Both the position numbers and the translations under genes were made by a program. Below are positions 13,907-32,500 of a DNA stretch of 64,000 bases, one piece after another. This DNA comes from Bacillus sp. FJAT-29790. Lineage in GTDB: Bacteria; Bacillota; Bacilli; Bacillales; Cytobacillaceae. Each line of letters starts with the position of its first letter. The first letter of the stretch is position 1. Where the stretch lies: positions 2,645,598 through 2,709,597 of the forward strand of contig NZ_JAHNZZ010000001.1 of assembly GCF_019039215.1 (NCBI RefSeq), read 5' to 3'. The notes beneath the pieces were generated by a model. It was given only the letters and a program-made list of their open reading frames with translations. It did no database searches and was not told the origin of the DNA.

Positions 13907-13926
13907 GATTAAAGGAGGAAAAGACA

Positions 13927-14346: not shown

Positions 14347-14377
14347 TGCATTTAAAACTAAATAAATGAATTTATAA

Positions 14378-14425
14378 AAAATCATCACATCAGTATCAAC
14401 GTATACTAATGTGATGATTTTTTTA
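14378..14425. terminator. Bidirectional terminator between Rieske and TetR genes
   Basis: Stem AAATCATCACAT...ATGTGATGATTT with T-runs on both sides lies between the convergent Rieske and TetR genes. Confidence 0.8.
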
Positions 14426-15423: not shown

Positions 15424-15463
15424 AAAAAGAGCCTGTTTAAAAAAAAGATTAAACAGACTCTTT
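15424..15463 (-). terminator. ribD terminator
   Basis: Stem AAAGAGCCTGTTTAA/TTAAACAGACTCTTTT next to the ribD stop. The rest of the 15095-15465 gap is AT-rich and shows nothing else clear. Confidence 0.75.
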
Positions 15464-15465
15464 TA

Positions 15466-16563
15466 TTATTGCCCTTTGTATATCGGATACCCCGTGAACT
15501 TAAAATCTTTGCCTATTTGAGTAAGTGATATATTTGATAGCTCTACAGCATCTGTCATCTTCTCAATACCAGTACCCTCAAGGAAGGTTGGAGCATTTTT
15601 TCCGCCTACTAATTTTGGAGCGATATATAGAATGACTTTATCAATTAATTTATTTTCTAAAAAAGATGCGTTAATCGTTCCGCCACCTTCAATAATTAAG
15701 GAAGAGACAAGCTTATCACCTAAAATTTTAACGACTTCTTTTGGATTGACGTTCTTAGAACCATTCGTTTGAAAAACGAGAATCCCAGAATCTTTTAGTA
15801 TTTTTCTTTTTTCTTTGTCATAGTTTTCGCTAGTAAAGATCCATGTTTCTGCCTTCTTATCTGTGATGACCTTAGATTCTAAAGGAATTCTTAAATTGGA
15901 ATCCAAAATGACACGAATTGGGTTTCGGCCATTCGGAATTCTAGAAGTCAGCTCAGGATCGTCTTCAATAACTGTATTAACCCCAACTAGTATCGCCATA
16001 TTTTCATTTCTAAGCTGATGGACATCGTGCCTTGCATCTTCAGACGTAATCCACTTGCTGCTGGAAGCATATGTTGCAATTTTTCCATCTAAAGTGATTC
16101 CCGATTTCAATGTGACAAAAGGCCTTTTCTGAACTATGAATTTATTAAATACTTCATTCATCTTTTGAGATTGTTCCTCACAAATTCCCGTGATCACCTC
16201 AATGCCGGCGTCTTGAAGTATTTTCACACCATTTCCTGACACAACCGGATTCGGATCCAAAGTTGCAATTACAACTTTTTTAATACCAGCCTCTACGATA
16301 GCCAATGCACAAGGACCTGTTCTGCCATGATGGGAGCAAGGCTCAAGTGTCACATAAATGGTTCCGCCTCTCGCCTTATCCCCCGCCATTTGAATCGCAT
16401 GAATTTCGGCATGCGGTTCACCAGCCTTTAAATGCGCACCAATCCCTACTACACGGTTATCATTGAGAATAACTGCACCAACCAATGGATTCGGTTCTGT
16501 CTGACCCTTCATTGCTTGTGCATTTTTCAAAGCTAATTCCATATAAAATTCATGATTAGTCAT
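15466..16563 (-). CDS. ribD: Riboflavin biosynthesis deaminase/reductase RibD
   Basis: 365 residues. The N-terminal cytidine-deaminase-like domain has the zinc site HAE (51-53) and EPCSHHGRTGPC (Cys76, Cys85). The C-terminal reductase domain begins near residue 145 (RPFVTLKSGITLDGKIAT). It converts the RibA product by deamination and reduction. The ATG at 16563 is chosen because GAAGGGA lies upstream; its first bases overlap the last codons of ribA, so translation is probably coupled. It lies outside a normal rib operon, with no ribE or ribH nearby. Confidence 0.92.
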   Translation of the reverse strand: MTNHEFYMELALKNAQAMKGQTEPNPLVGAVILNDNRVVGIGAHLKAGEPHAEIHAIQMAGDKARGGTIYVTLEPCSHHGRTGPCALAIVEAGIKKVVIATLDPNPVVSGNGVKILQDAGIEVITGICEEQSQKMNEVFNKFIVQKRPFVTLKSGITLDGKIATYASSSKWITSEDARHDVHQLRNENMAILVGVNTVIEDDPELTSRIPNGRNPIRVILDSNLRIPLESKVITDKKAETWIFTSENYDKEKRKILKDSGILVFQTNGSKNVNPKEVVKILGDKLVSSLIIEGGGTINASFLENKLIDKVILYIAPKLVGGKNAPTFLEGTGIEKMTDAVELSNISLTQIGKDFKFTGYPIYKGQ

Positions 16564-17311
16564 TTGGACAAGTCCCTTCATCTTCTAAATGTCCAGATTT
16601 CTTTATTTTTGTCTCCAAATATTTTTCATTAAATTTAGAGATATCTCCCCACAAAGGTGTTCTTCCAGAAACATGCAATCCTGATCCTTTTAATGCTTCG
16701 AGCTTCTTAGGATTATTTGTGATAAGGGTTACAGGCTTTGAACGCAGAGCTTTCAGCACTTGAATCGCATCCCCATAGTTTCTGGAGTCATCCACAAAGC
16801 CAAGACCTTCATTGGCTTCTACCGTATCATATCCATTTTCTTGAAGAATATAGGCCATTGCCTTACTAAATAAACCAATTCCTCTTCCTTCATGGTTAGC
16901 TAAATAAAATAGCGCCCCTGTCCCATGCTCGACAATCATTTTCATAGACTGCTTTAGCTGGTAACCGCAATCACATCGTTTACTTCCAAAAATATCACCA
17001 GTATGGCAAATAGAATGCATTCTCATTATTGCATTGTCAGCATAAGCAAAGTCACCATATACCAATACACTTGATTGTTGTAACTCCGCCAAATTCGCAG
17101 ATGATAATTTATCAATAATACGCTGAAAATCTTCCGTTACTTCCTTGCAATTCAGCCAGCAATACCAGTTGAATTCGACTGTTTCCCCATACAAATTCAC
17201 AGGCAGCCGGATGGGCCCCACTAAGTAAATCGCCCCTTCATTTGTTTTAATTAATTGAATTTTATCCTCTAAAACAGAAAGAACCTTAGATTCCAACTGA
17301 ACCTCTTTCAT
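16556..17311 (-). CDS. ribA: Monofunctional GTP cyclohydrolase II (RibA)
   Basis: 251 residues. The GTP cyclohydrolase II domain occupies the C-terminal two-thirds, with zinc ligands Cys102, Cys113 and Cys115 (ICHTGDIFGSKRCDCGYQLK) and NHEGRGIGL near 140. Unlike the RibBA fusion of B. subtilis there is no dihydroxybutanone-phosphate synthase domain; the N-terminal 85 residues are a short unrelated-looking segment. It starts the ribA-ribD pair. No FMN riboswitch was found upstream, so it is probably not under normal flavin feedback. Confidence 0.9.
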   Translation of the reverse strand: MKEVQLESKVLSVLEDKIQLIKTNEGAIYLVGPIRLPVNLYGETVEFNWYCWLNCKEVTEDFQRIIDKLSSANLAELQQSSVLVYGDFAYADNAIMRMHSICHTGDIFGSKRCDCGYQLKQSMKMIVEHGTGALFYLANHEGRGIGLFSKAMAYILQENGYDTVEANEGLGFVDDSRNYGDAIQVLKALRSKPVTLITNNPKKLEALKGSGLHVSGRTPLWGDISKFNEKYLETKIKKSGHLEDEGTCPND

Positions 17312-17384
17312 AGCGACATCCCCTTTTGATTATTGTGTGGTAAATAATCTTTTACATGTACAGCTCAACACAGTATTATTCTTT

Positions 17385-17508
17385 AGGAAAGACTGTTTTC
17401 GTAAACTTTTTTGCTATTGAACCAAAAAGTGGTGTAGTTGATTTCCGCTCCAATCAACTTCATAAAAAATTACCTATTTAAAAACAACAACCATTTAGAA
17501 AAGAGCCT
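17385..17508. repeat. MITE-like element, family 1 (short copy)
   Basis: Starts GACTGTTTTCGTAAAC, carries GTTGATTTCCGCTCCAATCAACT in the middle, and ends TAGAAAAGAGCCTT. The ends are imperfect inverted repeats matching the other family-1 copies; the long central hairpin is missing. It separates ribA from the FAD monooxygenase gene. Confidence 0.7.
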
Positions 17509-18599
17509 TAAGAAACAGCAAAATTACTTTTATAAGATGCTTCTTGTATCATCTGATGCGTTTGCAGTTTTTCAATTTCGTCACGCCGGCCATTTTCGAA
17601 TTTAATTAATTGGTGCACGCTTGTATCTTTTTGATCAAGTGCTTCTTTAATGACCTCACATAAAATGCTCGCATCCTTCAGTGCACAGTTAATACCAAGG
17701 GCACCTGTAGGACTCATTGTATGGGCGGCATCTCCCATAATGACTAATCCATCTTTTACCCAAGTTTCACAATAACAACTTTGAACTTGAAGTAATATAA
17801 AATTATTCCACGAAATAATATGTTTTCGGATAGTAGTTGATAATTCGGGAAAAGCAGCTGTCACTCGCTTGATAAACGGTTCAAATGATTGCTTTCTTAA
17901 TTGAGGATAAGAGCCCTCTTTAATATTCCAGCCTATTTGAATGAACCCGCCTGCCTGGGTAAATAATGCAAGCTGCTTATTATCAATCAAAGTCTGTTTT
18001 ATTGTCGGTTCCCATCCAGTTGGGCTTGGTATTTTCGCCCATAGCAGATCATATCCATGCTTTATTATATTAAAAGGCATATTAGCCAACTTTCGAATCG
18101 TAGAGTATCGACCATCAGCACCGATGACAATAGAACTCGTAATGGTCAATTCTTTATCGTCTTTTTTCGCTTTGATGCCTGTAACTGCGCCCTTTTCATC
18201 TGTGATTAACTCTGTAACTTTTGTACCCAACATCAGTCGGTAATTGTGATACTTTTCGGACTCTCGAATCAACACGCTTAACAAATTCCTTTGCGGAACA
18301 TGAATCCCTACGTGCTTGTTTCCATGGGCAGGAGTAACAGTCTTAATCACTTTACCATGATCCCAATATTCAATTCGTTCCATCAAGAGAAGTCCTTGTC
18401 TTTCTACCTTCTCAAAAAGATTAAATTCTTTTAGCACTTCTTCTCCAACATTATTTAGATGTTCACCGCGGAATTCTTTATCAATTCCTTCATGACGTTC
18501 TACAACAATCGTTGAGATGTTATTCTTCGCCAATAAATAACCCAGTAATGCCCCACCAGGTCCAGCTCCAACTATACAAACATCATATTTTAGAGTCAT
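17508..18599 (-). CDS. FAD-dependent aromatic-type monooxygenase
   Basis: 363 residues of the PHBH/UbiH flavin monooxygenase group. It has the N-terminal GAGPGGALLG dinucleotide fold, a mid DG motif (VIGADGRYS, about 157-165) and the C-terminal GD motif (IMGDAAHTMSPTGALG, about 285-300). These enzymes hydroxylate aromatic or related substrates with NAD(P)H and oxygen. The length is somewhat short at the C-terminus. It is on the same strand as ribAD and the ring-cleavage dioxygenase, separated by repeat elements, so it may supply a catechol-like substrate (inference). Confidence 0.8.
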   Translation of the reverse strand: MTLKYDVCIVGAGPGGALLGYLLAKNNISTIVVERHEGIDKEFRGEHLNNVGEEVLKEFNLFEKVERQGLLLMERIEYWDHGKVIKTVTPAHGNKHVGIHVPQRNLLSVLIRESEKYHNYRLMLGTKVTELITDEKGAVTGIKAKKDDKELTITSSIVIGADGRYSTIRKLANMPFNIIKHGYDLLWAKIPSPTGWEPTIKQTLIDNKQLALFTQAGGFIQIGWNIKEGSYPQLRKQSFEPFIKRVTAAFPELSTTIRKHIISWNNFILLQVQSCYCETWVKDGLVIMGDAAHTMSPTGALGINCALKDASILCEVIKEALDQKDTSVHQLIKFENGRRDEIEKLQTHQMIQEASYKSNFAVS

Positions 18600-18621
18600 G
18601 AATAAACCACCTTATATTCAA

Positions 18622-18915
18622 AAAAATAGGCTGTTTTCGCATATATTGTTGTTTTAGCCTTCAAAGTTTGCCCGTTGATTTCCGCTGTGGGCACTTGCTT
18701 TCCGCGGGGAGTGACGGGAGCCTCCTCGGCGTTATCGCCTGTGGGGTCTCCCGTTCCCTCTATTCCCGCAGGATACTGATTTTACATCCATGAATCTGCC
18801 CACGCACGAAGGAAATGCGATAGCATTTTCGAAGAGTCAAGTGCCCTCCGCTTCAATCAACTCAGATTATTAAATAAAAATCACATTATAAAGCAACAAA
18901 CTTTACTAAAATAGC
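18622..18915. repeat. MITE-like element, family 1 (long copy)
   Basis: About 290 bp starting GGCTGTTTTCGCATATATTG and ending TTTACTAAAATAGCC, with inverted ends. The core GTTGATTTCCGCTGTGGGC and CCGCTTCAATCAACT form outer arms. The inner GGGAGCCTCCTCGGCG...GCCTGTGGGGTCTCCC forms a strong hairpin. Confidence 0.85.
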
Positions 18916-18952
18916 CAAAAAATATTAGCGGTACCCTTCAATTGGGTACCGC
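18916..18952 (-). terminator. Terminator of the ring-cleavage dioxygenase gene
   Basis: Perfect stem GCGGTACCC/GGGTACCGC followed on the minus strand by a T-rich tract. Confidence 0.75.
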
Positions 18953-18971
18953 AAAACTTATACAACGTTTC

Positions 18972-19823
18972 TCAAACCCTTAATTGAATCCGATTTCCTG
19001 AAGGGTCTTGTGTGACAAAATAACCATTCTCTTCTTTTACTGAAACTCCAATGGTATTTAATTGTTCTACAGCATATTTTCTAGCTTCTTTATCTGGAAA
19101 AACAAGTGTAAATGAATTCAACCCGACACTGTTCTCGGCTGGCGCAGGGGCACCAACTCCATTCCAAGTATTCAATCCAATATGATGGTGATATCCGCCA
19201 GTAGAGATGAAGAGTGCCTGACCGCCATATCGGCAAACAATATCAAACCCAAGACCTTTACAATAAAACTCTTCTGTTTCTTGAAATTCAGAAACATGTA
19301 AATGGATATGCCCCATCAGTGTCCCAGCAGGAAGCCCATTCCATGGTTCTCCGTTTCCTTCAGCCAGAATACTTTCAACATCTAACGGGTTCGTCGCCAT
19401 TACTACTTCATTCTTTACCCAATCCCATGTTGAAGATGGGCGATCTGAATAAATTTCTATTCCATTGCCATCGGGGTCTGCTAAGTAAAGTGCCTCACTT
19501 ACAAGATGATCAGATGCCCCCTGTAATGGATAGCGTGTTTCTATAAAATGCCGTATTACTTTCGCTAAATCAGCTCGGCTAGGCAGCAGCAATGCAAAGT
19601 GATATAAGCCAGTTGTACGCGGCTGTTTCGGTATCACATTTTCGGGCTGTTCAATCGATAAAAGCGGGGTTTTGCCATCCGCCGTTAGAATCGCTTTTTT
19701 CTCTGTCTGTTCCAATATTTGAAATCCAATTATTTTTTGATAAAAAGCCAAAGACCGCTGTAAATCTATTACTTTTAAATCAACTTGCCCAACAAATGTA
19801 TGAGGCTTGCTATGAAATGTCAT
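18972..19823 (-). CDS. CatE-like extradiol ring-cleavage dioxygenase
   Basis: 283 residues with two vicinal-oxygen-chelate (glyoxalase-like) modules. Likely iron ligands are a His in GLYHFALLLP (about 70-80) or in GHIHLHVSEF (about 170), a His in HHIGLNTW (about 210-220), and Glu near the C-terminus. The length and start (FVGQVDLKVIDLQRSLAFYQ) resemble B. subtilis CatE, a catechol-2,3-dioxygenase. It is divergent from a YodB/CatR-like regulator, the same arrangement used to sense quinones and catechols. TAGGAGGAG precedes the ATG. Confidence 0.82.
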   Translation of the reverse strand: MTFHSKPHTFVGQVDLKVIDLQRSLAFYQKIIGFQILEQTEKKAILTADGKTPLLSIEQPENVIPKQPRTTGLYHFALLLPSRADLAKVIRHFIETRYPLQGASDHLVSEALYLADPDGNGIEIYSDRPSSTWDWVKNEVVMATNPLDVESILAEGNGEPWNGLPAGTLMGHIHLHVSEFQETEEFYCKGLGFDIVCRYGGQALFISTGGYHHHIGLNTWNGVGAPAPAENSVGLNSFTLVFPDKEARKYAVEQLNTIGVSVKEENGYFVTQDPSGNRIQLRV

Positions 19824-22147: not shown

Positions 22148-23578
22148 TTATTTTGAAGGAGGCTGAATCGCAGGGAAATAGCTGTTGATCGCATGCTCTT
22201 TCTTTTTGAAGTTATCCTTTTCTTCAAATACAGCCTTCTTCGCTTTTTCGATCTCTTTATTTAACTCTTCAAGATTGACACCTTTTTTAACAAGTTCCTC
22301 AATTCCAATTTGAATTGCTTTATTTGATTCTTCAATCGACGTTCTTAAAGAATCCATCGCACCTTGCGGATTATGGAAACCAGCTCCATTTTCGGCTGCT
22401 ATGATATCCCAATGCCATTGTCCTTTACGAACATGTTCCTGTGCCTTCTTAATTTTATCCTCACTAACCCCGGAACTAATCATCTTATTTACATAGTAGT
22501 GGGAAGTGATTGAAATGTCCTCTGCCTTGTGTAAAGCGGCGATATGAGTATCTTGAATTTGCATGACACGCTCTTTTAACGCATCAAGATCACGATTGCT
22601 GTGGCATGTTGCACATGATTGCTCCATAGACTTCAGCGGTGACTTAATCCAGTGAGAAGTGATTTTCTTCTTCCCATCCGCTCGTTCATATGGCATATGG
22701 CAATCAGCACAGCTCACATCTGCCTTGCCATGAGGGCCTTCTATATGTGTTTCAAATTCTGGATGCTGCACTTTTAACATCGGTGTACCTGAAACATTAT
22801 GAATCCAGTCTTTTTCAAAGCCTCTTTCTTTCGCTGTTGTTTCGTAGTATTCGTACATATCTTCAGGCTTAAATCCGTTTGCCCATGGAAACGTTACTTC
22901 TCCATTTTCTGGTGCAAAGTAATATTCAACATGGCATTGGCCGCAAACATAGCTGCGCATATCGTTTTTAGTCGGATTTGACAAATCAATTCCTTGCGAT
23001 TCCATCGCTTTTATAAAGCTTGGACGAGTAATGCGAAGGTCCATTGTTTCCGGGTCATGACAATCTGAACAGCCAATTGGCGAATGTCCCATTGCCTCTG
23101 CCTTTGGCCAGATGACATCATTAAAGCTTCCACTCCAATACTCATCACCCATCTCTTCGATCATTTGTGGAACAGCAGTCGATTTACATGTTAAGCAGGA
23201 GCCGATTGATTTATCAGTAATACGTGCAGTTTCGCGGATATCTTCGTTTGCATACATATGCCCGCGGTCTTCCGTATACTGAGTTGCAAACCCATATCCG
23301 TTAAAAAGAATCGGTAAATATGGTTCTTTATCGGCATCATATTTACTCCGGTTGATTGATCCGCCATATTTTGTATCTTCTTCTTCCATCGTTTTCTGAT
23401 AGCTGTCATATTGAAGCGGGAATAAATCTTTAAATGCTTCACTTCTGATTTCATCTTTTGACAAGCCTGTCGACGCTACACTTGCTGCATTTTTAGTTAT
23501 GTCTGCACCCGAACAGCCTGAAAGAATCAGAATGACCGCTACTAGGAAGAAAAATGACCATTGATAAGTCCTAACCAT
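22148..23578 (-). CDS. nrfA: Ammonia-forming cytochrome c nitrite reductase NrfA
   Basis: 476 residues. A lipoprotein signal ends at Cys22 (LSGC), so the enzyme is anchored outside the membrane. Five haem sites are visible: the special lysine-ligated CLTCK at 128-132, then CSDCH (170), CGQCH (212), CADCH (290) and CATCH (322). The segment between haems 3 and 4 carries conserved catalytic-region residues (ECH-VEYYFAP, THIEGPHGK). It reduces nitrite to ammonium with six electrons from NrfH. The start overlaps the nrfH stop by 8 bases. Confidence 0.96.
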   Translation of the reverse strand: MVRTYQWSFFFLVAVILILSGCSGADITKNAASVASTGLSKDEIRSEAFKDLFPLQYDSYQKTMEEEDTKYGGSINRSKYDADKEPYLPILFNGYGFATQYTEDRGHMYANEDIRETARITDKSIGSCLTCKSTAVPQMIEEMGDEYWSGSFNDVIWPKAEAMGHSPIGCSDCHDPETMDLRITRPSFIKAMESQGIDLSNPTKNDMRSYVCGQCHVEYYFAPENGEVTFPWANGFKPEDMYEYYETTAKERGFEKDWIHNVSGTPMLKVQHPEFETHIEGPHGKADVSCADCHMPYERADGKKKITSHWIKSPLKSMEQSCATCHSNRDLDALKERVMQIQDTHIAALHKAEDISITSHYYVNKMISSGVSEDKIKKAQEHVRKGQWHWDIIAAENGAGFHNPQGAMDSLRTSIEESNKAIQIGIEELVKKGVNLEELNKEIEKAKKAVFEEKDNFKKKEHAINSYFPAIQPPSK

Positions 23579-24104
23579 TGTTCAACGTACCTCCTTTGTT
23601 TTCTAAAAGCTCCCCAGATTTAGGCGGTTTATAGAAATTCTCTGTTTTAAAGCCTTTGCCATGTGGGATTTCTTGATGGCAGCTTGTGCAGCTGTCTTTT
23701 GCATCATGCGAAACATTATCCACAGTGCTCTCATGGCAATCAACACAGTTTTGATTGATTACCTTGGCTGATCTTTCGGTCGCCAGCAGAACATCCGGTA
23801 TTTTCTCTGACCCTAGTGTGTTGTAATACATATGGTTTAGGCCTGCTTTTGCTTTAAATGTCAGCTTTCCTGTTTGCGTTTCATGAGGCAAGTGACAATC
23901 ATTACAAGCAAGCTTAGCATGGGTCGAATCAGTAAAGGATTCATGCACACTCGTCATGATGTGGCAGCTTTGACAGAAATCGGCTGAGTCCGTGTAGGCG
24001 AAAGTTTTAGCCGTCACGGCTGAAATAATGATTCCCGCAAATACTCCGATAAAAATTAAGATTTTTTTATCAATAGCGAATAGCTTTTTTAGCATTTTTT
24101 TCAC
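23571..24104 (-). CDS. nrfH: Cytochrome c nitrite reductase small subunit NrfH
   Basis: 177 residues of the NapC/NirT family. One N-terminal membrane anchor (about 12-33) is followed by four haem motifs: CQSCH, CNDCH, CVDCH and CTSCH. It takes electrons from menaquinol and passes them to NrfA on the outer face of the membrane. It is transcribed with nrfA, and it lies downstream of the ccm genes that probably mature both proteins. Confidence 0.95.
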   Translation of the reverse strand: MKKMLKKLFAIDKKILIFIGVFAGIIISAVTAKTFAYTDSADFCQSCHIMTSVHESFTDSTHAKLACNDCHLPHETQTGKLTFKAKAGLNHMYYNTLGSEKIPDVLLATERSAKVINQNCVDCHESTVDNVSHDAKDSCTSCHQEIPHGKGFKTENFYKPPKSGELLENKGGTLNNG

Positions 24105-24109
24105 CTCCC

Positions 24110-24240
24110 TTTAAGAAAAGCGGAAGCGCCTTGCCCAGGAGTGACAAGCATAAAATGTGCTGGCGTGAAGGTTGGTCTTTAAACTTCTCGACGGATTGGC
24201 GAGTCCCTAGGTGCTGGAGCAGACCGCTTTTAAAAATTAG
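24110..24240. repeat. Bacillus-type GCGGAAGCGCC repeat (degenerate)
   Basis: AAAAGCGGAAGCGCCTTGCCC at one end and GTGCTGGAGCAGACCGCTTTT at the other pair as imperfect inverted arms, with GACAAGCATAA inside. I recall similar elements as common between Bacillaceae genes. Confidence 0.5.
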
Positions 24241-24512
24241 GCTCTGTTAAATTTGTCTGTTGATTTCCGCTCCAATTAACAGGGTGCAAAAATCAACATT
24301 GCGCTTTAACACAGCAAAAAATTTAGAAGGCTATTTTCGTAAAAATTACTGCTCTTGTAACTTAGCTAATCGCTACTAAAATCATTTTTGAGGGACTTGA
24401 AGCAATCACTAATTCATAAATTGTCTTTTTTCAAGTCTCTCCCGAAAGCAATATCTTCTACAAAAAAAGCCTGTTAAACATATATTAAAACGCTGATAAC
24501 AGCATTCTAATC
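24235..24512. repeat. Degenerate family-1 repeat and AT-rich spacer
   Basis: AGGCTCTGTTAAATTTG, GTTGATTTCCGCTCCAATTAAC and TTTAACACAGCA form a decayed family-1 copy. Then comes a second fragment beginning AGGCTATTTTCG and ending GCCTGTTAAAC. No promoter or gene could be recognised. It splits ccmG from nrfH. Confidence 0.5.
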
Positions 24513-25019
24513 CTATAGTTTGGAAATATTCTCTATAAGTTCTATCAGTTTTTTCTTTGTCGTTGGACCTACAAATCTCTCAACAATTATCCCGTTTTTA
24601 TCAATTATAAGCGTATCCGGCTGGCCGATTACGCTGTATTCTTTTGATACGTCTTCTTTTGTATCTAGTAAATAAGGCAATTTAGAGTTGGTCTCCTTGA
24701 TATATTTCTCTATTCGCTTCGATGATTCGCCTTTAGCGATCAGCAAAAGTTCCGCATCCTTGTATTCTGCCGCGAATGCTTCTAACTCTGGTGCCTCATC
24801 GATACATGGCTGGCACCAAGTAGCAAAGAAGTTTAAAACAACGACCTTCCCTTTATAGTCAGATAACTGATATTCCATCCCATAAATATCCTTCAGGTTA
24901 AAATCAATTGCCTCATCCCCAGGATTTGCGGACACTTTTCCGCTTAATCCATTCACTAGGATTCCGATAACACCTGTAACAATGACGATCACTATGAGAG
25001 GTATGAGCCTTTTTCTCAT
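24513..25019 (-). CDS. ccmG: ResA/CcmG-like thiol-disulfide oxidoreductase
   Basis: 168 residues. An N-terminal membrane anchor (about 5-24) is followed by an extracellular thioredoxin fold with the active site WCQPC (Trp68-Cys69-Cys72) and the ResA/CcmG-type ending of the fold. It keeps the CXXCH cysteines of apocytochromes reduced. In context it is the CcmG of the adjacent System I set; by sequence alone it could equally be called ResA. Confidence 0.88.
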   Translation of the reverse strand: MRKRLIPLIVIVIVTGVIGILVNGLSGKVSANPGDEAIDFNLKDIYGMEYQLSDYKGKVVVLNFFATWCQPCIDEAPELEAFAAEYKDAELLLIAKGESSKRIEKYIKETNSKLPYLLDTKEDVSKEYSVIGQPDTLIIDKNGIIVERFVGPTTKKKLIELIENISKL

Positions 25020-25031
25020 TTTCTCACCTAC

Positions 25032-25166
25032 TTATTTTGATTCTGACTGCCAATCTTCAATCAACTGAATCTCTTTTTTTAGCTCCTTTTGGCGTTTGCC
25101 GAGAATAAAGATATATCCTGCCAATAAGCCCCATATGACTGAGTAAGCCATAAATAAATATTGCAT
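25032..25166 (-). CDS. ccmD: CcmD-like small membrane protein, 44 residues
   Basis: An ATG after GGAGGCGG opens a 44-codon frame with one membrane segment (MQYLFMAYSVIWGLLAGYIF) and a charged cytoplasmic tail (GKRQKELKKEI). This is the size and topology of CcmD, which helps release holo-CcmE from CcmABC. It sits exactly between ccmC and ccmG, as in many ccm operons. Confidence 0.85.
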   Translation of the reverse strand: MQYLFMAYSVIWGLLAGYIFILGKRQKELKKEIQLIEDWQSESK

Positions 25167-25184
25167 TATTTCCGCCTCCTATTT

Positions 25185-25895
25185 TCAACTTGCTAGTTTT
25201 TCAATCACTTTCATTTTTGCCTTTTTGACAGTTAGCCGCATTTTTTCAATTTCGGTCCCTTTGCGCATCAAGAAAATATAAAGTAAAGTGATCGTACCGA
25301 TGCAGAATAATAGGGTAATCAGCATGTCTGGCTCAATTCCCCCGCCTTTCTGATTCTTCCCATCTCCGAACACAACCGGGTGCAGCTTCGTGTTCCACCA
25401 GCGGATCGCCATGAAAACGATAGGGACATTGATACAGCCAATGATCCCAAAGACGGCGGATAGTTTAGCAATCTTTTCCCATGAGCCTTCCATTTTACGA
25501 ACGAACAAATAAGCGACATAAATAAACCAAAGAATTAAGGTTGTTACTAATCTAGGCTCCCAAGTCCACCACGTGTTCCAAGCGGATTTCCCCCAAATCA
25601 TTCCTGTTACGAGCGCGATTGTTGTAAAAAGCACGCCTATTTCTGCCGAAACACCCGCCTTAATAAAGTGGGATTCAGTCGGTTTTTTTAAAGTTAAAAT
25701 ACTATAAAAGCCGACAACAAAGAATGCTAAGAAGGCTACCCATGCAGAGCCGACATGAAAGTAAAATATTTTCTGGGTTACACCCATTTGTTTTTCAACC
25801 GGTGACCAGATAAAAACTAAATATAAAGCAATGAACACGGCCGGCACGAGAATCATATAAAGAATACGGTCAATCATGGCTGACGGTTGTTTCAT
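25185..25895 (-). CDS. ccmC: Haem handling protein CcmC
   Basis: 236 residues with six predicted membrane segments. The tryptophan-rich haem motif reads WNTWWTWEPRL (about 106-116), and conserved histidines are at about 47 and in the later loops. CcmC passes haem to CcmE with the CcmAB transporter. Its ATG overlaps the ccmB stop (TAATG), so translation is coupled. Confidence 0.93.
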   Translation of the reverse strand: MKQPSAMIDRILYMILVPAVFIALYLVFIWSPVEKQMGVTQKIFYFHVGSAWVAFLAFFVVGFYSILTLKKPTESHFIKAGVSAEIGVLFTTIALVTGMIWGKSAWNTWWTWEPRLVTTLILWFIYVAYLFVRKMEGSWEKIAKLSAVFGIIGCINVPIVFMAIRWWNTKLHPVVFGDGKNQKGGGIEPDMLITLLFCIGTITLLYIFLMRKGTEIEKMRLTVKKAKMKVIEKLAS

Positions 25896-26578
25896 TACGA
25901 TCCCTCCATCAAGTATTCAAATAGAAAAAAGCAGGCTGCAAAAAACAGCAAGTCATACCCAGCCATAAGCTGCAGCCATGAGATGGCATCCTGGATCCCG
26001 TCTTGGCCAAGGACAACCTTGGTCGCCTGGACAGCCGCGATCATCAGAGGGCTAAGCAGCGGAAGCAGCAGAACCGGAAGCAGCATCTCGCTATTTTTCG
26101 CATTGGCAGCTAGTGCTGCTAAGAATGTTCCAACGATGATAAATCCGAATGTAGCTGTAAAAACAATCAAGAGAAACCAGATAAAATAGCCATTAAATCG
26201 ATAATCAAACAAGACGAATAACACCGGAATGCTGACCACCTGTACCGTTATCACAAGTACTAAATTAGCAATTACCTTACCAATGTAGATACTAGCTGGG
26301 TCAATGGGTGCGATCATTAATCCCGTCAGGCTATCATTTTCTTTCTCTGCTAAAAATGACCGGTTCAGCCCAAGAATCCCGGAAAATATCGTAATCACCC
26401 AAATCAAGCCCGGAATAATGGCCTTTATAGTATTATTAGTGGGGTCGAACGCAAAGCTGAAGATAAGAATGACGAGACTTGAAAAGATAATCATCATCCC
26501 GATTGTCTGTTTTGATTTCAGTTCATTTCGTATGTCCTTACTAGCAATGACAATCGCATCTGCGAAAAGCGTGATCAT
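25895..26578 (-). CDS. ccmB: Haem exporter permease CcmB
   Basis: 227 residues with six predicted membrane segments and the CcmB-type start (ADAIVIASKDIRNELKSK) and FSGILGLNRSFLAEKENDSL segment. It forms the ABC permease part of CcmAB. ATGA overlaps with the ccmA stop and TAATG with the ccmC start show a tight ccmABC operon. Confidence 0.92.
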   Translation of the reverse strand: MITLFADAIVIASKDIRNELKSKQTIGMMIIFSSLVILIFSFAFDPTNNTIKAIIPGLIWVITIFSGILGLNRSFLAEKENDSLTGLMIAPIDPASIYIGKVIANLVLVITVQVVSIPVLFVLFDYRFNGYFIWFLLIVFTATFGFIIVGTFLAALAANAKNSEMLLPVLLLPLLSPLMIAAVQATKVVLGQDGIQDAISWLQLMAGYDLLFFAACFFLFEYLMEGS

Positions 26579-27288
26579 GTTCCTCCCACCGCCGCTTCAT
26601 ACCACTCTTTTAACGATTGCAAGCCTGCCTCTTGGTCAATTTGCTGACTTGTGATCACTCTCCCTTTATTTAGGACGGTCACCCGATCACATACTCTCAT
26701 CACCTGTTCAAAATCATGCGAGATTAAAAGAATCGAAATTCCTTTACTTTGCCTTTCCTTAATTAGGCTGTTCAGAAGATTAATTGCTTCCTGATCTAGG
26801 CCTGTATGTGGTTCATCGAGAAGAAGGACGTCCGGCTCTGCAAGCAGGACTCGGGCAATCGCGAGGCGCTGCATCATTCCTCTTGAAAAAGAACGGATTG
26901 GCAAATCTTTAAAATAATGGAGTCCCACTGCCCTTAACAGCTCCATCGCCCTTTTTTCAATATTTTTTACTTTGTAGAGTTTTCCATAAAACAGCAAATT
27001 TTCTAGTGGTGATAATGAAGAATACAAAAAAGATTCATGTCCTAAATAGCCAATCTTCTTTTTCAAAAGAAGTGATTTCTTCCTTGTTTTCTCCCCGTTC
27101 AGGCGTATTTCTCCACTTGTTGGCTGCATAAGGCCGGCAGCAATCTTAAAAAATGTACTCTTCCCGGCTCCATTCGGACCTATAATGGCTACACTCTCGC
27201 CAGCTCCCAAAGCTAATGAGAAGTTCCTCAAGATGATCTTATCGCCAATCATTTTTGTGATATTTTTCATTTCAAGCATATGATCCAA
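26575..27288 (-). CDS. ccmA: Haem exporter ATPase CcmA
   Basis: 237 residues with Walker A GPNGAGKST (37-45), Walker B VLLLDEPHTGLDQ, and the signature region reading SFSRGMMQRLAIAR instead of LSGGQ, common in ABC-2 and CcmA-like ATPases. It drives haem-CcmE release. First gene of the second half of the ccm cluster, after a 250-bp gap. Confidence 0.9.
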   Translation of the reverse strand: MDHMLEMKNITKMIGDKIILRNFSLALGAGESVAIIGPNGAGKSTFFKIAAGLMQPTSGEIRLNGEKTRKKSLLLKKKIGYLGHESFLYSSLSPLENLLFYGKLYKVKNIEKRAMELLRAVGLHYFKDLPIRSFSRGMMQRLAIARVLLAEPDVLLLDEPHTGLDQEAINLLNSLIKERQSKGISILLISHDFEQVMRVCDRVTVLNKGRVITSQQIDQEAGLQSLKEWYEAAVGGT

Positions 27289-27537
27289 CTCTTTCTGTCA
27301 GAGGTTGTTAATATAGTGTTCATGGCTGTATTTTTTGTTTAGGCTCATTTCAAGTAAATTGTTGCTTTATAGCTAAAGTATTTCACTGCATCATGAACCC
27401 CTTATGAGACCCGCTTTTTCCTTTTCGGGGAGTTTTCTGGACTCATGAATTCCTTTAGACTGAAAACTCTTTTTCTAAATGACTAGTACAGTATTAAAAG
27501 CAATAATGTATAAAAAAGGAACAGTATGGTGAAGGTT
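27289..27537. repeat. Repeat-derived spacer inside the ccm cluster
   Basis: Contains ATTGTTGCTTTATAGC and CATGAACCCCTTATGAGACC, similar to the start and unit of the 52-bp array at 44024-44370. No strong promoter or terminator was seen, so transcription may read through. Confidence 0.45.
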
Positions 27538-27882
27538 CTATGTGAATCGAAGCAGATCACTTTTTACATTTTCAAGATGCTTCTTGTATTCCTCAAGGCT
27601 TTTGACATATTGCTCTTCCGCCATTTCACCCTGTTTCTTCTGCATCTCCAGCCGGGTTATTTGCTCTTCAATGACGGCTTTTTTCTTTAGTAACAGCTGA
27701 AACTGCTTTTCATCTGTATCTGGCTCTTGCTTCTGCAAAAGCTTTCGACTTCTAACTATTCCAATGACAACGACCACGAGCAAAAAAATCAGCATAACAT
27801 GAGGATCAAGCTTATTTAGGAATGGCGTCTCAAGCCAAAACGATACAAGCCAATCTGGATGGAGCGGCGGGACATCAATCAT
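27538..27882 (-). CDS. Small membrane protein with coiled coil, ccm-associated
   Basis: 114 residues. One membrane segment (about 28-44, VMLIFLLVVVVIGIV) is followed by a long helical, charged cytoplasmic region (KKKAVIEEQITRLEMQKKQ...) ending in a SHOCT-like pattern. Its start overlaps the end of the preceding gene by 4 bases. It may be part of a split CcmI/NrfG-like function (inference from position only). Confidence 0.65.
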   Translation of the reverse strand: MIDVPPLHPDWLVSFWLETPFLNKLDPHVMLIFLLVVVVIGIVRSRKLLQKQEPDTDEKQFQLLLKKKAVIEEQITRLEMQKKQGEMAEEQYVKSLEEYKKHLENVKSDLLRFT

Positions 27883-28250
27883 TCTTTGATCCTGCCCTTC
27901 TGCTTGCGGAGCTTATTTAACTCGGCTAATATTTCACGCTCGATTTCATCAGCTTCGGCTTTACTTTTTGACTCGTCTGTTATTCCTTTATTCCCCATTT
28001 TCATATAGTCTGCTGCAAGAAGTTGATAACGCTTTTTCAACGTTTGAAAGTCATCCTCGGAAATTTTCTTCATAAGAAAATCCATTTCAAGCTCATTTAC
28101 AGTTGCATAAATCATCTCTAATGGCAGTTCAAGCTCATTTCCATCAACGGCTGCCAGCGTATTTCCCTCACCGCTGAAAAAAGGAGCAACAATAAAATAA
28201 AAACAAGTAATAATAACAATGGAACCTCCGAGTAAAAATAAATAATCCAT
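27879..28250 (-). CDS. Small membrane protein, ccm-associated (possible CcmI-like)
   Basis: About 123 residues. One N-terminal membrane segment (MDYLFLLGGSIVIITCFYFI) is followed by a helical soluble region (ELEMDFLMKKISEDDFQTLKK...). The ATG at 28250 follows AAGGAGCG; an upstream extension is not supported. Tail-anchored helices next to CcmF and CcmH suggest a CcmI-like role, but no TPR repeats are visible. Confidence 0.65.
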   Translation of the reverse strand: MDYLFLLGGSIVIITCFYFIVAPFFSGEGNTLAAVDGNELELPLEMIYATVNELEMDFLMKKISEDDFQTLKKRYQLLAADYMKMGNKGITDESKSKAEADEIEREILAELNKLRKQKGRIKE

Positions 28251-28376
28251 ATTGATCGCTCCTTGGTTTAGAGGTGGGAGGTCAGGGTTGAGATTGGGGG
28301 AAACCAGTGAATACACCGATTTCCTTTTTCCCTTCCTTGCTCTCAACCTTATTTTCCTTTAAACTTTCATACTACG

Positions 28377-28895
28377 TTAAAAATGCTTACGCCTTTCCTC
28401 TTCAAAGGTTATTTCAATTATTTCTCGCTCTGTTTCAGTTATCTCTTTTTCTTCAATAGGTATCGAACACGATTCCGCATTTTTGTTTGTCAGTTTCTTG
28501 ATTCCAAAACCGACAACAAACGCGCCAAATAAAAAGCCAAATGCTGGGGCGACCCAAGCAATCAAATCGCTGCCTTTCGCGGCCGGTGTTCTTAAAGCAG
28601 CTTGGCCGTATTCATCAACATATGACTGCAGAATCTCACTCTCTGATTGGCCATTATTGAGAGCCTCCAAAACTTCTTCATAATAGACTTTTTTTACCGT
28701 ACAAGTTGAGATATCATGATCAGCATGCCCTTGCATATCAAGCTGGTTAATTACAAATTGGAACTCTTTCGAATTGTAATCAAACACTGATTTTGCCCTT
28801 GCTCCCTTATAATCAAAGCCGAGATCAATCACTATCAGGGAAACCGCGAACGTAATGGACCGTTTTAATAACTGCCTTCTAGTTAATGTCTTCAT
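28377..28895 (-). CDS. CcmH/NrfF-like protein with a single cysteine
   Basis: 172 residues. An N-terminal TRRQLLKRS signal-like segment and membrane helix are followed by a CcmH-type helical domain (ALNNGQSESEILQSYVDEYG, about 79-98) and a C-terminal membrane helix (about 110-135). The usual LRCxxC motif is replaced by ISTCTVKKV with only Cys65, so no CxxC dithiol is possible. The ATG overlaps the ccmF stop (ATGA). Likely partner of CcmF in holding the apocytochrome. Confidence 0.78.
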   Translation of the reverse strand: MKTLTRRQLLKRSITFAVSLIVIDLGFDYKGARAKSVFDYNSKEFQFVINQLDMQGHADHDISTCTVKKVYYEEVLEALNNGQSESEILQSYVDEYGQAALRTPAAKGSDLIAWVAPAFGFLFGAFVVGFGIKKLTNKNAESCSIPIEEKEITETEREIIEITFEEERRKHF

Positions 28896-30871
28896 ACCCG
28901 AACACCCGCGTGTTGACCGCGCATTCGGAATGATGCAGTCGTTTTTCCCCCGATCAATGCAACAGCAGTCCCGATCATCATCAGAATACCTCCTGCCCAA
29001 ATCCAGCTAACAAAAGGATTAATTTTGACTACAAAGGTAACCTTCTCTCCGTTTTCCCATGAACTGAGCACAACGTAAAGATCCTCACTCCAATTCGTTT
29101 TTATCGCTACTTCCGTGGATGGCTCCGGCCAGGTTGCATAAAAGATCTTTTCCGGCTTGATCATTCCAGCACTTTTTCCTTTATAGGAGACAGCGATATT
29201 AGCAAACACAATTCCATTGCCATTATTCGTTGTTTCAGACAGTTCTTGAAAGGTCAGCTCATAATGTCCGACTTTCATGCTTTCGCCTTTATTAACCGTC
29301 TTCATAACTTCTTCGGAGTACGCATTAGATGAGATCACACCGACAGCGATAAGCGCCACTCCAATATGAACGATATAGCCTCCATACCTGCGTTGATTTT
29401 TTCTTGTTAATTGGATCGCTGCTTTTATGAAGCCTTCCTTTGTCGCCTTTCGCCGTGCTTCCATTCCCCGCCAAAACTCAAGCACGTGCACAGCGAACAT
29501 AAATGCCGTAACCGTTAATCCGGTGATGGCGTATATGCCCCTCACCCCCGTTACCACAAGGATAATAGTAAATATGATGGCTACCAGCAGAGGGGCAAGG
29601 GTATTTTTTAAGAAGCGTTCAAATACCGCTTTTTGCCATGAAATGAGCGGACAAATGGCCATTAGTAAAAGGAGAGCCAGCATAATCGGCGCCATCACTT
29701 TATTAAAATATGGAGCACCTACGTTTACTTTCGTTCCGGTTACTGTTTCTGAGATCAAGGGATACATTGTTCCCCAAAAGACTGCAAATGCGGCTGCGAC
29801 TAAAATAAAATTATTTAACAGAAAGCTGCTTTCCTTTGAAAAGTAAGATTCAATCGGCTGGCTTTCTTTTTTTATCAGATGATAACGGGTGGATACGACG
29901 TAAATGGCAAAGAGCATCATAAATGCCATAAAGACCAAGAAATAAGTCCCGAGATTGCTGTCACCAAACGCATGAACACTTGTTAAAATTCCACTTCGCA
30001 CAAGAAAGGTGCCAAATAGTGAAAGGATATAAGACAAAATGATCAGACTTAAATTCCAAGTTCTTAGCATGTTTTTCCGTTCTTGAATCATAACCGAATG
30101 CAGGAATGCCGAAACGGTCAGCCACGGTAAAAAGGATGCATTTTCAACCGGGTCCCAAGCCCAGTATCCACCCCAGCCTAGCTCAAGATAAGCCCACCAG
30201 CCGCCAACGATGTTACCGATCGTCAAGAACAGCCATCCCGTCAATGTCCAGCGTCTCGTTAATTTAATCCACTGGGCATCCATCTTTTTCATCAGCAGCG
30301 CAGCAATGGCGTAGGCAAAAGGAACAGCCAAACCGACGTAGCCCATATAGAGAGTGACAGGATGGATGACCATGCCAGGGTTTTGGAGCATCGGATTCAA
30401 TCCTTTTCCATCGACAGGTATTGTCTCCGTCATCTCAAATGGGTTCGCATTTAAGACCATGACAATATAGAAAAATAGCTGATTTACGACTAAAATATTT
30501 GAAACATATGGAATCATAATGTTTTGTTTCTTCTTATTTAGAACAATAATGGCTGCATAAATGCTTAATAAAAACGTCCAAAGTAATAACGATCCTGCGT
30601 TTCCTGCCCAAAAAGCTGCTAACTTATATACGAGTGGAAGCTGCAGATTTGTATAGGCAGCTACATACTTATATTGAAACTGGCTCGTACCGAGTATATA
30701 GAATAAAAGGAATGCGGAGATGCTCGTCACGAATGCAAGGGATAAGACCCCTCCACGTGCACTTTCCAGCCATTTTGGGTTCTTTGTTTTTAAGCCGATG
30801 ATGTTAGCAGCTAATGAGTACAAGGAAATGACGATGCCTAGTATGAGTGAGATATTTCCGATTAAATACAT
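28892..30871 (-). CDS. ccmF: Haem lyase CcmF/NrfE
   Basis: 659 residues with about 15 predicted membrane segments. The WWD haem motif reads GWGGYWAWDPVENASFLPWL (about 230-249), and conserved histidines occur in the membrane parts and large outer loop. It joins haem from CcmE to the CXXCH (and possibly CLTCK) cysteines. The length and order (ccmE upstream, ccmH downstream) match System I. Confidence 0.95.
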   Translation of the reverse strand: MYLIGNISLILGIVISLYSLAANIIGLKTKNPKWLESARGGVLSLAFVTSISAFLLFYILGTSQFQYKYVAAYTNLQLPLVYKLAAFWAGNAGSLLLWTFLLSIYAAIIVLNKKKQNIMIPYVSNILVVNQLFFYIVMVLNANPFEMTETIPVDGKGLNPMLQNPGMVIHPVTLYMGYVGLAVPFAYAIAALLMKKMDAQWIKLTRRWTLTGWLFLTIGNIVGGWWAYLELGWGGYWAWDPVENASFLPWLTVSAFLHSVMIQERKNMLRTWNLSLIILSYILSLFGTFLVRSGILTSVHAFGDSNLGTYFLVFMAFMMLFAIYVVSTRYHLIKKESQPIESYFSKESSFLLNNFILVAAAFAVFWGTMYPLISETVTGTKVNVGAPYFNKVMAPIMLALLLLMAICPLISWQKAVFERFLKNTLAPLLVAIIFTIILVVTGVRGIYAITGLTVTAFMFAVHVLEFWRGMEARRKATKEGFIKAAIQLTRKNQRRYGGYIVHIGVALIAVGVISSNAYSEEVMKTVNKGESMKVGHYELTFQELSETTNNGNGIVFANIAVSYKGKSAGMIKPEKIFYATWPEPSTEVAIKTNWSEDLYVVLSSWENGEKVTFVVKINPFVSWIWAGGILMMIGTAVALIGGKTTASFRMRGQHAGVRV

Positions 30872-30891
30872 GATGTCGCCCGCCTGTCTAA

Positions 30892-31338
30892 TTAGTTCTG
30901 CTTATTTTCATTCATCTCTTTATGCATCTTCGAGTCATAGTTTTCTACGTCTTCTCCTTCATACTTGGAAGGGCATTTTGTTTGAACCTTTTCCGCTTCA
31001 AACACGCCATTTTCCTTTAAAAATCCTTCGACAATCACAATGACATCCTCCGAAAAATTATCTGGCTTCACACCCATATAACGGATGGGAAGAGAAGCCC
31101 CGCTTTCTTCGGAAATTTCAAACTTCAATTCAATTTTGTCTGCATTCCAATCAATTGAGTCCTGCTTTAATAACCCTTGCGTCATTATGTATTCATCCTT
31201 TAAGGAATCCTTCTTATTTAGCAATTCCTCTATCGTAACTTCCTTGCTGCCTGCGCTTGGCATAGTCGAAAAGAACATGATCATGATCGCAGCAGCGAAG
31301 AGAGATAAACCGAACATAATTTTTTTATTTTTAGACAT
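30892..31338 (-). CDS. ccmE: Haem chaperone CcmE of CxxxY type
   Basis: 148 residues. One N-terminal membrane anchor (about 6-24) is followed by a beta-barrel domain. Haem binding uses Cys122 and Tyr126 (KCPSKYEGE) instead of the histidine of Gram-negative HxxxY CcmE. This CxxxY variant is known from Desulfovibrio, archaea and some Gram-positives. The start follows an AGGAGGT site that overlaps the previous gene's end. Confidence 0.9.
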   Translation of the reverse strand: MSKNKKIMFGLSLFAAAIMIMFFSTMPSAGSKEVTIEELLNKKDSLKDEYIMTQGLLKQDSIDWNADKIELKFEISEESGASLPIRYMGVKPDNFSEDVIVIVEGFLKENGVFEAEKVQTKCPSKYEGEDVENYDSKMHKEMNENKQN

Positions 31339-32295
31339 TCATTTACCTCCTAGTTTTTTCAGTAGTTCGCTATATTCTTGTTCAGAGATGCTTCCTTCAA
31401 GGAGCATTGCTCGTAAGCGTGATTTCTTTGCTTTGAATGCTGATGGTTTCTCGGGTTCTGTTCTATGTATCATCATTTTCTTTTTATTCAGGAAGAAAAC
31501 GATCAGCAATGCCGAAATGACACTGAAGCCACCGACGGTTGAGATGATTACCCAGATAGGGATGGTTTCATTTTTCTTCACTGCTCCTTCACCATGGGTC
31601 GGATTGCCAGCCATTTCTTCCATTATTTCCATTGTCGTTTTTGATTCTGCGCGTTGATATTGAAGCTGGAACTCTTTTACCTCATTAGGCTTCATCCCTT
31701 GAATCTGATATAAGAACATATTCATGCCATAAGGATTTTCCTGGTGTGAATCGGCCTGAGGGTTTAATTTAAAGTTTTCAGTTTTTAATGGTTCAAGAAA
31801 AACAACACTTACTAGACGGATATCTGCAAAGCTTTTAAATTGAAAGGAAAGCGTTTTTGTCTCACCGCCCGCTTTTATTTGCCCCGTATAATATTCAATA
31901 ACAAATTTATAAGCTTCTTGTGGCTGAATATCCTCGCTTGTTTCCCATGTAATCATGCTATTTTTTTCATCAATTTTGTATTCGATTTCGTTCATCTGGG
32001 TGAAATCGCGATTGTAGTCAGCAACAAAGCCGATTCGAAACTCGTCATCATTCATTGGAAGGGGAATTTCAATCTGGCCCTTTTTGGGTTTGTCGGTATT
32101 ATTTATTAACGAACCATGATATCCAACTAGCAAGGATGGATGATCTTTCACTTTATCATTCGGGTGATTGGCGTATTCAGGCATGATTTGTATTTTTAAT
32201 TCCTCCATCTTTAAAATAGGTGCAGCAAGAGAAAATCCCGGCATGCTAAGGATAAGGAAGGTAGCCCCTATTAAAGACAGGATTATTTTTTTCAT
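31339..32295 (-). CDS. Membrane-anchored exported protein of unknown function, ccm-associated
   Basis: 318 residues. A signal peptide (about 1-24) leads an outer beta-rich domain (about 30-235) with no cysteines or haem motif. One membrane helix (about 248-268, WVIISTVGGFSVISALLIVF) and a basic cytoplasmic tail with a SHOCT-like ending (LRAMLLEGSISEQEYSELLKKLG) follow. It is the first gene of the ccm/nrf transcription unit, directly below two FNR-type boxes. I do not recognise the family; position suggests a role in cytochrome c maturation or its assembly. Confidence 0.7.
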   Translation of the reverse strand: MKKIILSLIGATFLILSMPGFSLAAPILKMEELKIQIMPEYANHPNDKVKDHPSLLVGYHGSLINNTDKPKKGQIEIPLPMNDDEFRIGFVADYNRDFTQMNEIEYKIDEKNSMITWETSEDIQPQEAYKFVIEYYTGQIKAGGETKTLSFQFKSFADIRLVSVVFLEPLKTENFKLNPQADSHQENPYGMNMFLYQIQGMKPNEVKEFQLQYQRAESKTTMEIMEEMAGNPTHGEGAVKKNETIPIWVIISTVGGFSVISALLIVFFLNKKKMMIHRTEPEKPSAFKAKKSRLRAMLLEGSISEQEYSELLKKLGGK

Positions 32296-32369: not shown

Positions 32370-32385
32370 TGTGAACATATTCACA
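32370..32385. promoter_or_regulatory. FNR/CRP-type box 1
   Basis: TGTGAACATATTCACA, a perfect TGTGA-N6-TCACA palindrome, 75 bases upstream of the first ccm-cluster gene. This is the binding pattern of the Bacillus Fnr regulator, which activates anaerobic respiration genes. Confidence 0.7.
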
Positions 32386-32484: not shown

Positions 32485-32500
32485 TGTGACCAAATTCACA
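32485..32500. promoter_or_regulatory. FNR/CRP-type box 2
   Basis: TGTGACCAAATTCACA, a second perfect TGTGA-N6-TCACA palindrome, 115 bases from the first (close to 11 helical turns). A half-site TTTGTGAACG follows at about 32526. Confidence 0.65.

Follow-up and report, generated by a model that had tools for sequence, protein, structure and literature searches.

A linkage of nrfAH, the genes for the nitrite-to-ammonium reductase NrfHA, with the cytochrome c maturation (Ccm, System I) genes ccmEFHABC was described in Bacillus azotoformans (Heylen and Keltjens, 2012, PMC3475470). That account is a single sentence on one strain, and the sentence makes no mention of an additional first gene (P0 below), FNR sites, co-occurrence counts or the motifs of CcmE and CcmH. 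The same linkage is present in Bacillus sp. FJAT-29790, a soil relative of Bacillus, in the 64,000-nucleotide stretch of contig NZ_JAHNZZ010000001.1 analyzed here (the window), where it is a real, conserved operon of nrfHA and a System I* type of Ccm with FNR-like sites. The linkage is thus already known. Its extent, its apparent control by FNR, the series of relatives in which the linked ccm genes erode and the place of P0 in System I were not found in a literature search that covered subscription journals thinly and that listed, beyond the papers cited here, no title or opening of an abstract pointing to this operon. From the genes present and their conserved order, the co-occurrence, trees that largely match and the FNR-like sites, we infer FNR induction and the maturation steps proposed below and consider it likely that this is an anaerobically induced operon coupling the NrfHA reductase to the System I* machine that builds it.

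Several described systems attach heme to NrfA. In E. coli, the NrfEFG proteins are paralogs of the CcmF, CcmH and CcmI type encoded beside nrfA (PMC3601427, PMC12285233). NrfI of Wolinella deals with the same problem of placing heme on the CXXCK motif of an NrfHA-type enzyme (PMC12285233). According to a 2025 review, NrfHA is matured by System II, and NrfI is the sole confirmed CXXCK recognizer among System II organisms (PMC12285233). Shewanella is reported to have no dedicated NrfA lyase, its general CcmF being thought to do the same job (PMC6976685). System I*, a form of System I whose CcmE carries a CPSKY motif, includes firmicutes and has CcmH in about a third of cases (PMC3601427). An archaeal CcmE requires CXXXY (PMC9084895), and CcmH is reported not to be essential (Allen, 2006; Goddard, 2010, via PMC3601427 and PMC9084895).

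A System I* operon ending in nrfHA

Reading from 32295 to 22148 on the minus strand of the window, the operon comprises P0, ccmE, ccmF, a ccmH-like gene, two genes designated I1 and I2, ccmA, ccmB, ccmC, ccmD, ccmG, nrfH and nrfA (Table 1). The ccm and nrf genes named in an earlier sequence-only reading of this DNA were all confirmed on this strand and in the order given there; P0, I1 and I2 extend its list. The reductase is a pentaheme NrfA with one CLTCK (the active-site heme) and four CXXCH motifs and has a NapC/NrfH-type partner. The same motif count, one CXXCK and four CXXCH, holds for every NrfA row annotated from fetched loci (101/101). The same gene order was found again in many relatives and is therefore not a product of chance.

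The System I set (CcmABC, CcmD, CcmE and CcmF) is complete in the window. CcmE has CPSKY, a CXXXY motif replacing HXXXY, and so is of the System I* type, for which Firmicutes have already been named as carriers (PMC3601427, PMC9084895). Some relatives have a Ccm operon apart from nrfHA (unlinked), and the C-type CcmE motif was found in all 55 rows closest to the unlinked references and in 38 of the 41 closest to the linked ones (the pattern did not match the other three). CcmF has the WxWD motif and four conserved histidines in 40/40 linked rows of the window's family (f1, window included), 14/14 linked rows of the order and 46/46 unlinked rows, as counted from the alignment, which replaced a regular-expression scan that was too narrow. 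Unlike System I*, the window has a CcmH without the cysteine pair, and P0, I1 and I2 where a CcmI with tetratricopeptide repeats (TPR) would be expected. No redox cysteine pair was found in the exported part of the window CcmH; within the family the motif C-x-CGC occurs in 0/47 linked versus 42/43 unlinked rows, the few CXXC matches in linked CcmH lying in over-long N-terminal extensions of the open reading frames (ORFs). Three loci (L224, L230 and L234) have two ccmH genes per operon, of which one is closer by identity to the unlinked type and the other to the linked type. No TPR match was obtained among the operon proteins, and the only CcmI match was a weak one in I2.

The window genome has a single NrfA and a single CcmF, together with ResB of System II. 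NrfEFG differs in being non-orthologous by the CcmF tree (on long branches), in its TPR subunit, for which no counterpart was found, and in the CcmH cysteine pair, absent from the window. An arrangement of the NrfEFG type, with a CcmF paralog beside a general CcmF, is likewise absent from this genome with its one CcmF, although 20 other family genomes have two. Nor does a ResB/CcsAB-type gene adjoin nrfA as expected of NrfI, a System II fusion protein unlike the window's System I; the ResB gene lies about 0.73 Mb from nrfA. The closest named CcmF genes are from Cytobacillus (87%), and by this measure the window is Cytobacillus-like.

Table 1. Features of the nrfHA-ccm locus, in window coordinates.
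Feature	Position	Strand	Description	Profile match
FNR/CRP-type palindrome	32485..32500		TGTGACCAAATTCACA; upstream of operon	
FNR/CRP-type palindrome, second	32370..32385		TGTGAACATATTCACA; upstream of P0	
P0	31339..32295	-	exported protein, one C-terminal transmembrane segment, CcmI/SHOCT-like C-terminal tail	
ccmE	30892..31338	-	heme chaperone, CPSKY (cysteine) type	PF03100, 84.5 bits
ccmF	28892..30871	-	heme lyase	PF16327, 225 bits; PF01578, 135 bits
ccmH-like	28377..28895	-	GHADHDISTC; exported part without cysteine pair	PF03918, 42.5 bits
I1	about 27879..28250	-	small membrane protein; start set from relatives, ORF extends to 28346	
I2	27538..27882	-	weak CcmI match	TIGR03142, 18.3 bits (cut-off 29.3)
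ccmA	26575..27288	-	ABC ATPase	117 bits
ccmB	25895..26578	-	membrane subunit	PF03379, 116 bits
ccmC	25185..25895	-	heme handling	PF01578, 97 bits
ccmD	25032..25166	-	44 amino acids	TIGR04391, 46.0 bits (cut-off 24)
ccmG/ResA-like	24513..25019	-	thioredoxin fold, WCQPC	
ccmG-nrfH gap	24105..24512		408 bp, repeat-like sequence; terminator-like hairpin 24511-24484	
nrfH	23571..24104	-	tetraheme quinol dehydrogenase, four CXXCH	TIGR03153 (top match), 117.8 bits (under cut-off 134.2)
nrfA	22148..23578	-	pentaheme nitrite reductase; lipobox-like LSGC	PF02335, 432 bits

Elsewhere in the window, positions 12770-19823 hold a cluster of amidohydrolase-, Rieske-, RibA-, RibD-, FAD monooxygenase- and glyoxalase-like genes, as judged by eye from their translations.

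NrfA occurs with System I in genomes that also have System II

We surveyed 193 genomes of the family and a sample of 397 from the order. NrfA was over the cut-off in 94/193 family genomes, CcmF in 112/193 and both in 93, so that CcmF is present in 93/94 genomes with NrfA versus 19/99 of the others (Fisher 2e-34, kinship uncorrected). The sole exception, G078, is 66% complete; weak matches to the NrfA profile in G067 and to CcmF in G124 were under the cut-off and left uncounted. In the order sample, CcmF was over the cut-off in all 30 NrfA genomes versus 3/367 of the others, with one more (G350) below it. ResB was present in 37 of the 38 NrfA genomes tested (the miss, G371, is 90% complete) and in 3/3 others; the check for System II elsewhere in the window genome, suggested by the sequence-only reading, likewise returned ResB. 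Because NrfA in this order is nearly always accompanied by System I, even in genomes that carry System II, the system that matures NrfHA here is most likely System I rather than ResBC. Thus, the self-contained System I that the earlier reading placed beside nrfHA is very probably its maturation system.

Physical linkage varies within the family. Among the 19 NrfA genomes of the order sample outside the family, 18 have CcmF on the same contig within 10 kb, and in G459 the two are split over contigs. Of the 94 family genomes with NrfA, 49 have CcmF within 10 kb and 43 elsewhere, on another contig or at a distance; it is missing in G078, and in G179 NrfA and a linked-type CcmF are on different contigs. 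From the 43 genomes with CcmF elsewhere, we read 32 NrfA loci and, in 8 genomes, the unlinked ccm operon. One Bacillales genome without NrfA or P0 (G208) has, before its Ccm operon, a pentaheme cytochrome unmatched by the NrfA profile (L235, 6317-7768).

Two Ccm lineages

Seven families of the order carry the NrfA-CcmF pair. Four of them (f17, f25, f26 and f29) have the order nrfHA-P0-ccmE-F-H-I1-I2-A-B-C-D-G (over two contigs in G459), and nrfHA comes last in f1, f18 and f13, with no I1 or I2 called in f13. The comparison of ccmF with that of other Firmicutes, proposed in the sequence-only reading, was made with a tree of 81 CcmF rows (quick method), which resolved linked and unlinked clades. 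The linked CcmF of f1 groups with those of f18 and f13 (98). Its unlinked counterpart in f1 (99) joins the linked CcmF of f17, f25, f26 and f29 (99 for the whole group). A tree of 74 NrfA rows separates f1 and f18 (98) from f17, f25, f26 and f29 (99), as in the CcmF tree. The NrfE and CcmF proteins of E. coli group together far outside the Bacillota rows of the CcmF tree. Orthology of the linked CcmF with NrfE was thus rejected, though cautiously, as the two E. coli rows sit on long branches.

The unlinked operon has the order P0-E-F-H-I1-I2-A-B-C-D-G with an I2 of about 330 amino acids, and its stretch includes a diheme CXXCH cytochrome gene in 43 of 48 loci. L080, counted among these 48, is in fact a linked-type operon whose contig stops short of nrfHA. 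Four f29 loci (L220, L223, L224 and L226) have tandem nrfHA pairs, the first NrfA being a variant with CMSCK and CSTCH.

Graded loss of the linked ccm genes

Both lineages, recognized as two CcmF, are present in 20 family genomes. The linked set is cut to P0-F-H-I1-I2-G in the five genomes of group g7 (no I2 was called in G013) and to P0-F-H-I1 in the eight of g8; it is full in the remaining seven, five of which have an unlinked set without A-D. A genome-wide search for CcmB gave a single match over the cut-off in 18 of the 20 genomes and two matches in the others, G080 and G099; in G018 and G023 a further match lies below the cut-off. CcmF, I1 and P0 are doubled in 20/20 and CcmH in 18/20. 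The unlinked operons of the two exceptions, G080 and G088, showed no ccmH after ccmF, and neither did the sole Ccm operon of G155 and G132. Thus, where a second Ccm exists, the heme-delivery genes are mostly single-copy; those for the lyase remain in two copies, or else the linked lyase has gone as well. The g7 and g8 genomes resemble E. coli in having a general Ccm as well as CcmF/CcmH/CcmI-type genes beside nrfA (PMC3601427, PMC12285233).

In groups g18 (probably Neobacillus), g21 and g11 the linked lyase is also gone. The 32 such loci that were read have the version of P0 that stands in nrf loci (P0') before nrfH in 26 cases, a 46-amino-acid remnant in one and nothing in five, and NrfA has CXXCK in all of them (32/32). 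The NrfA tree places g8 as the sister of g18 with g11 and puts g21 basal to them; the linked F-H-I1 genes were therefore lost at least twice, if never regained. Where the linked CcmF persists, its omega of 0.046 (g7, one pair) and 0.067 (g8, eight pairs) indicates purifying selection. The linked CcmH and I1 of g8 have omega values of 0.27 and 0.24, versus 0.085 and 0.098 for the unlinked proteins.

One strain with the partial linked set of g7 is Bacillus sp. DNRA2 (L079), whose conversion of nitrite to ammonium has been reported as a measured phenotype (PMC10653820). The same genome (G014) has on contig C30 a second nrfHA (L095) without P0, ccm genes or an FNR-like site, adjoining a moeA-like gene; its NrfA groups with that of the window in the NrfA tree.

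FNR-like sites upstream of P0

The only two perfect copies of TGTGAN6TCACA, which we take to be the FNR/CRP consensus, in the 64-kb window both lie upstream of P0. Two perfect copies arose in none of 5000 dinucleotide shuffles of that intergenic stretch. In relatives, we accepted one mismatch at most within 500 bp, compared the counts with mononucleotide shuffles and counted identical upstream DNA once; the groups contain close relatives. A site precedes P0' in 40/41 loci with nrf and ccm (shuffle mean 0.40) and in 25/25 loci with nrfHA and P0' but no linked ccm (0.55). Where P0' leads, a site stands before nrfH in only one of 67 loci (L177, which has the 46-amino-acid remnant), and where P0' is absent, in five of seven; the two without a site are L095 and a short copy of the nrfA stretch of the window itself. 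At the level of the order, sites were found before P0 in 13/15 loci (0.20 in shuffles) and before nrfH in 11/20 (0.25). The P0-ccm-nrfHA block is apparently oxygen-regulated through an FNR-type protein, judging by these motifs. In the unlinked operon, a site precedes the diheme gene in 1/43 loci (0.5 in shuffles) and P0 in 8/48 (0.7; L080 included). The latter count is higher than chance would give, and FNR may therefore control some of the unlinked operons as well.

The gap between ccmG and nrfH is the longest among the linked loci compared: with the stop codon excluded, it measures 411 in the window versus 28-244 in 36 other loci, five pairs of which are the same genome fetched twice. Its repeat-like DNA matches stretches in many related loci.

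P0 accompanies System I

P0 has a signal-type N-terminus, one transmembrane segment near residues 245-269 and no cysteine. It gave no Pfam or NCBIfam match above the cut-off and nothing useful among PDB sequences; its C-terminal tail presumably resembles the CcmI/SHOCT motif. The P0 proteins of linked and unlinked operons are one family (hhalign E 1e-57). The linked I2 corresponds to the C-terminal third of the 330-residue unlinked I2, and P0 and the long I2 show a weak mutual likeness.

The distribution of P0 was followed with a profile, including 49 of 63 NrfA genomes outside the class and 31 others. It was present in 13 of the 49, within 3 kb of CcmF in 12 of the 13. By CcmF status, it was found in 12 of 17 genomes with full-length CcmF (no match in G606, G659, G767, G869 and G911), 1/1 with a fragment, 0/6 with a very divergent CcmF and 0/25 with none over the cut-off. 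Nearer the window, P0 matched in 0/20 members of the window's genus that lack CcmF, in 6/6 genomes that have the unlinked operon and no NrfA, in 2/2 nrf-linked genomes of the order and in 0/3 order genomes with CcmF and no NrfA. These counts show that P0 tracks System I, not in every lineage, rather than NrfA itself.

In g18, P0' is 264-294 residues long and has lost the C-terminal tail, versus 316-345 in most full loci; the tail is retained in g21. The median omega of P0' in nrfHA-only loci is 0.162 (26 sequences, 41 pairs), with 0.053 for NrfA and 0.058 for NrfH. This value argues against neutral decay, and we rejected the view of the g18 P0' as a decaying relic, even if its absence from five of the 32 nrfHA-only loci read and the single remnant speak for the other side. 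Tentatively, and with more doubt than confidence, we propose that P0 could be a new Gram-positive System I subunit replacing CcmI, an exported, membrane-anchored adaptor that would bring apocytochrome to CcmF, with the nrf-specific P0' selecting NrfA. On this view, the P0' that mostly stays under purifying selection in the nrf operon of g18, where the linked lyase is gone, might pass apo-NrfA to the other Ccm lyase.

A proposed route of NrfHA maturation and its alternatives

At low oxygen, an FNR-type regulator would switch on P0-ccm-nrfHA. CcmABCD would put heme on the CcmE cysteine and CcmG would hold the apocytochrome cysteines reduced, while CcmF, aided by CcmH, I1, I2 and P0, would attach heme to the four CXXCH of NrfH and to the four CXXCH and the CXXCK of NrfA; the resident ResBC would serve aerobic cytochromes. 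A second Ccm operon, in the relatives that have one, would make the delivery parts redundant, with one set mostly lost. The nrf-linked lyase set could then be kept, in an NrfEFG-like arrangement, or lost too, the other Ccm lyase taking over.

Several observations weigh against this proposal. Linked CcmF is absent in 43/94 NrfA genomes of the family (individual contig breaks are possible), and the co-occurrence counts depend on kinship. The absence of linkage in relatives, which the sequence-only reading had named as its refutation, thus holds for those 43 genomes, but System I is present there. The trees also disagree on f13, which groups with f1 and f18 by CcmF and falls outside both groups by NrfA. 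In this strain the 408-bp gap, with its hairpin resembling a terminator, may free nrfHA from control by the FNR promoter or weaken read-through into these genes. Outside the order, we took from 348 genomes of the phylum 63 outside the class with an NrfA match of E < 1e-70, of which 29 have CcmF and 40 ResB over the cut-off. ResB is within 10 kb of nrfA in 18/63, CcmF in 7/63 and both in none; System II therefore evidently can build NrfHA elsewhere. Six genomes of f79, also outside Bacillales (G716, G770, G795, G842, G887 and G908), have a very divergent CcmF-like protein of ~700 residues within 10 kb of nrfA. The presence of ResB here and its frequent place beside nrfA in other Bacillota could mean that Ccm is a general anaerobic cytochrome machine merely neighboring nrfHA, with ResBC handling the special heme of NrfA. 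Yet ResB is in nearly all genomes tested, NrfA occurs almost only where CcmF is, and the linkage and FNR-like sites recur in other families, which makes such a division of labor improbable. The linked lyase set might instead be a strict, dedicated CXXCK lyase that alone attaches the lysine-ligated heme, as NrfEFG does in E. coli. Its persistence in 13 genomes (g7 and g8) as a reduced set of NrfEFG-like parts with a full Ccm elsewhere, the purifying selection on a linked CcmF with intact motifs, the difference in kind of its CcmH and the lack, among the loci read, of a linked-clade CcmF in any genome without NrfA all favor this explanation. However, g18, g21 and g11 have a CXXCK NrfA and no linked lyase, the unlinked clade is sister to the nrf-linked CcmF of other families and may itself be NrfA-competent, and the linked CcmH and I1 of g8 evolve faster than their unlinked counterparts. 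We therefore find a strict dedicated lyase doubtful. The need for one, assumed in the sequence-only reading, did not hold strictly: 43 of the 94 NrfA genomes have one CcmF, located elsewhere, and Shewanella offers a parallel.

The sequence-only reading also pictured the locus as a self-contained module of maturation genes and enzyme that could move as a unit, and the patchy presence of NrfA in the family would fit the spread of such a respiration module by horizontal transfer. Nevertheless, 69 of 77 family locus rows (twice-fetched genomes retained) are at one chromosomal site, with ytqA, ytqB, DUF2524 or ytpB beside NrfA, the NrfA and CcmF trees divide in the same way but for a single family, and megablast against 72,556 plasmid records gave no match. 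Of the other eight rows, L129, L166 and L180 are too short to tell, and five with enough flank (L081, L083, L084, L117 of G065 and the second nrfHA of G014, L095) are at other sites, in keeping with movement. A tblastn search located a different Ccm (CcmF 47%) of another clade on two Bacillaceae plasmids, p1 of Cytobacillus firmus and one from Metabacillus. On p1 (L282, NZ_CP107028.1), this third Ccm type is near a quinol oxidase and has a 51-amino-acid SHOCT-domain protein in the place of P0. On synteny, trees and the plasmid search, movement as a unit was held to be very unlikely, and the locus looks vertically inherited.

Significance

The general assignment of NrfHA maturation to System II in the 2025 review (PMC12285233) does not fit Bacillales, where the genomic evidence points to System I. 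By losing linked ccm genes in grades, the relatives offer a natural experiment that separates the parts that deliver heme, and can be shared, from those that form the lyase facing the substrate; this orderly keeping or dropping of parts among relatives makes the question of how NrfA is assembled testable. If its proposed role is true, P0 would be a new component of a pathway found in textbooks. Organisms with NrfHA retain soil nitrogen as ammonium.

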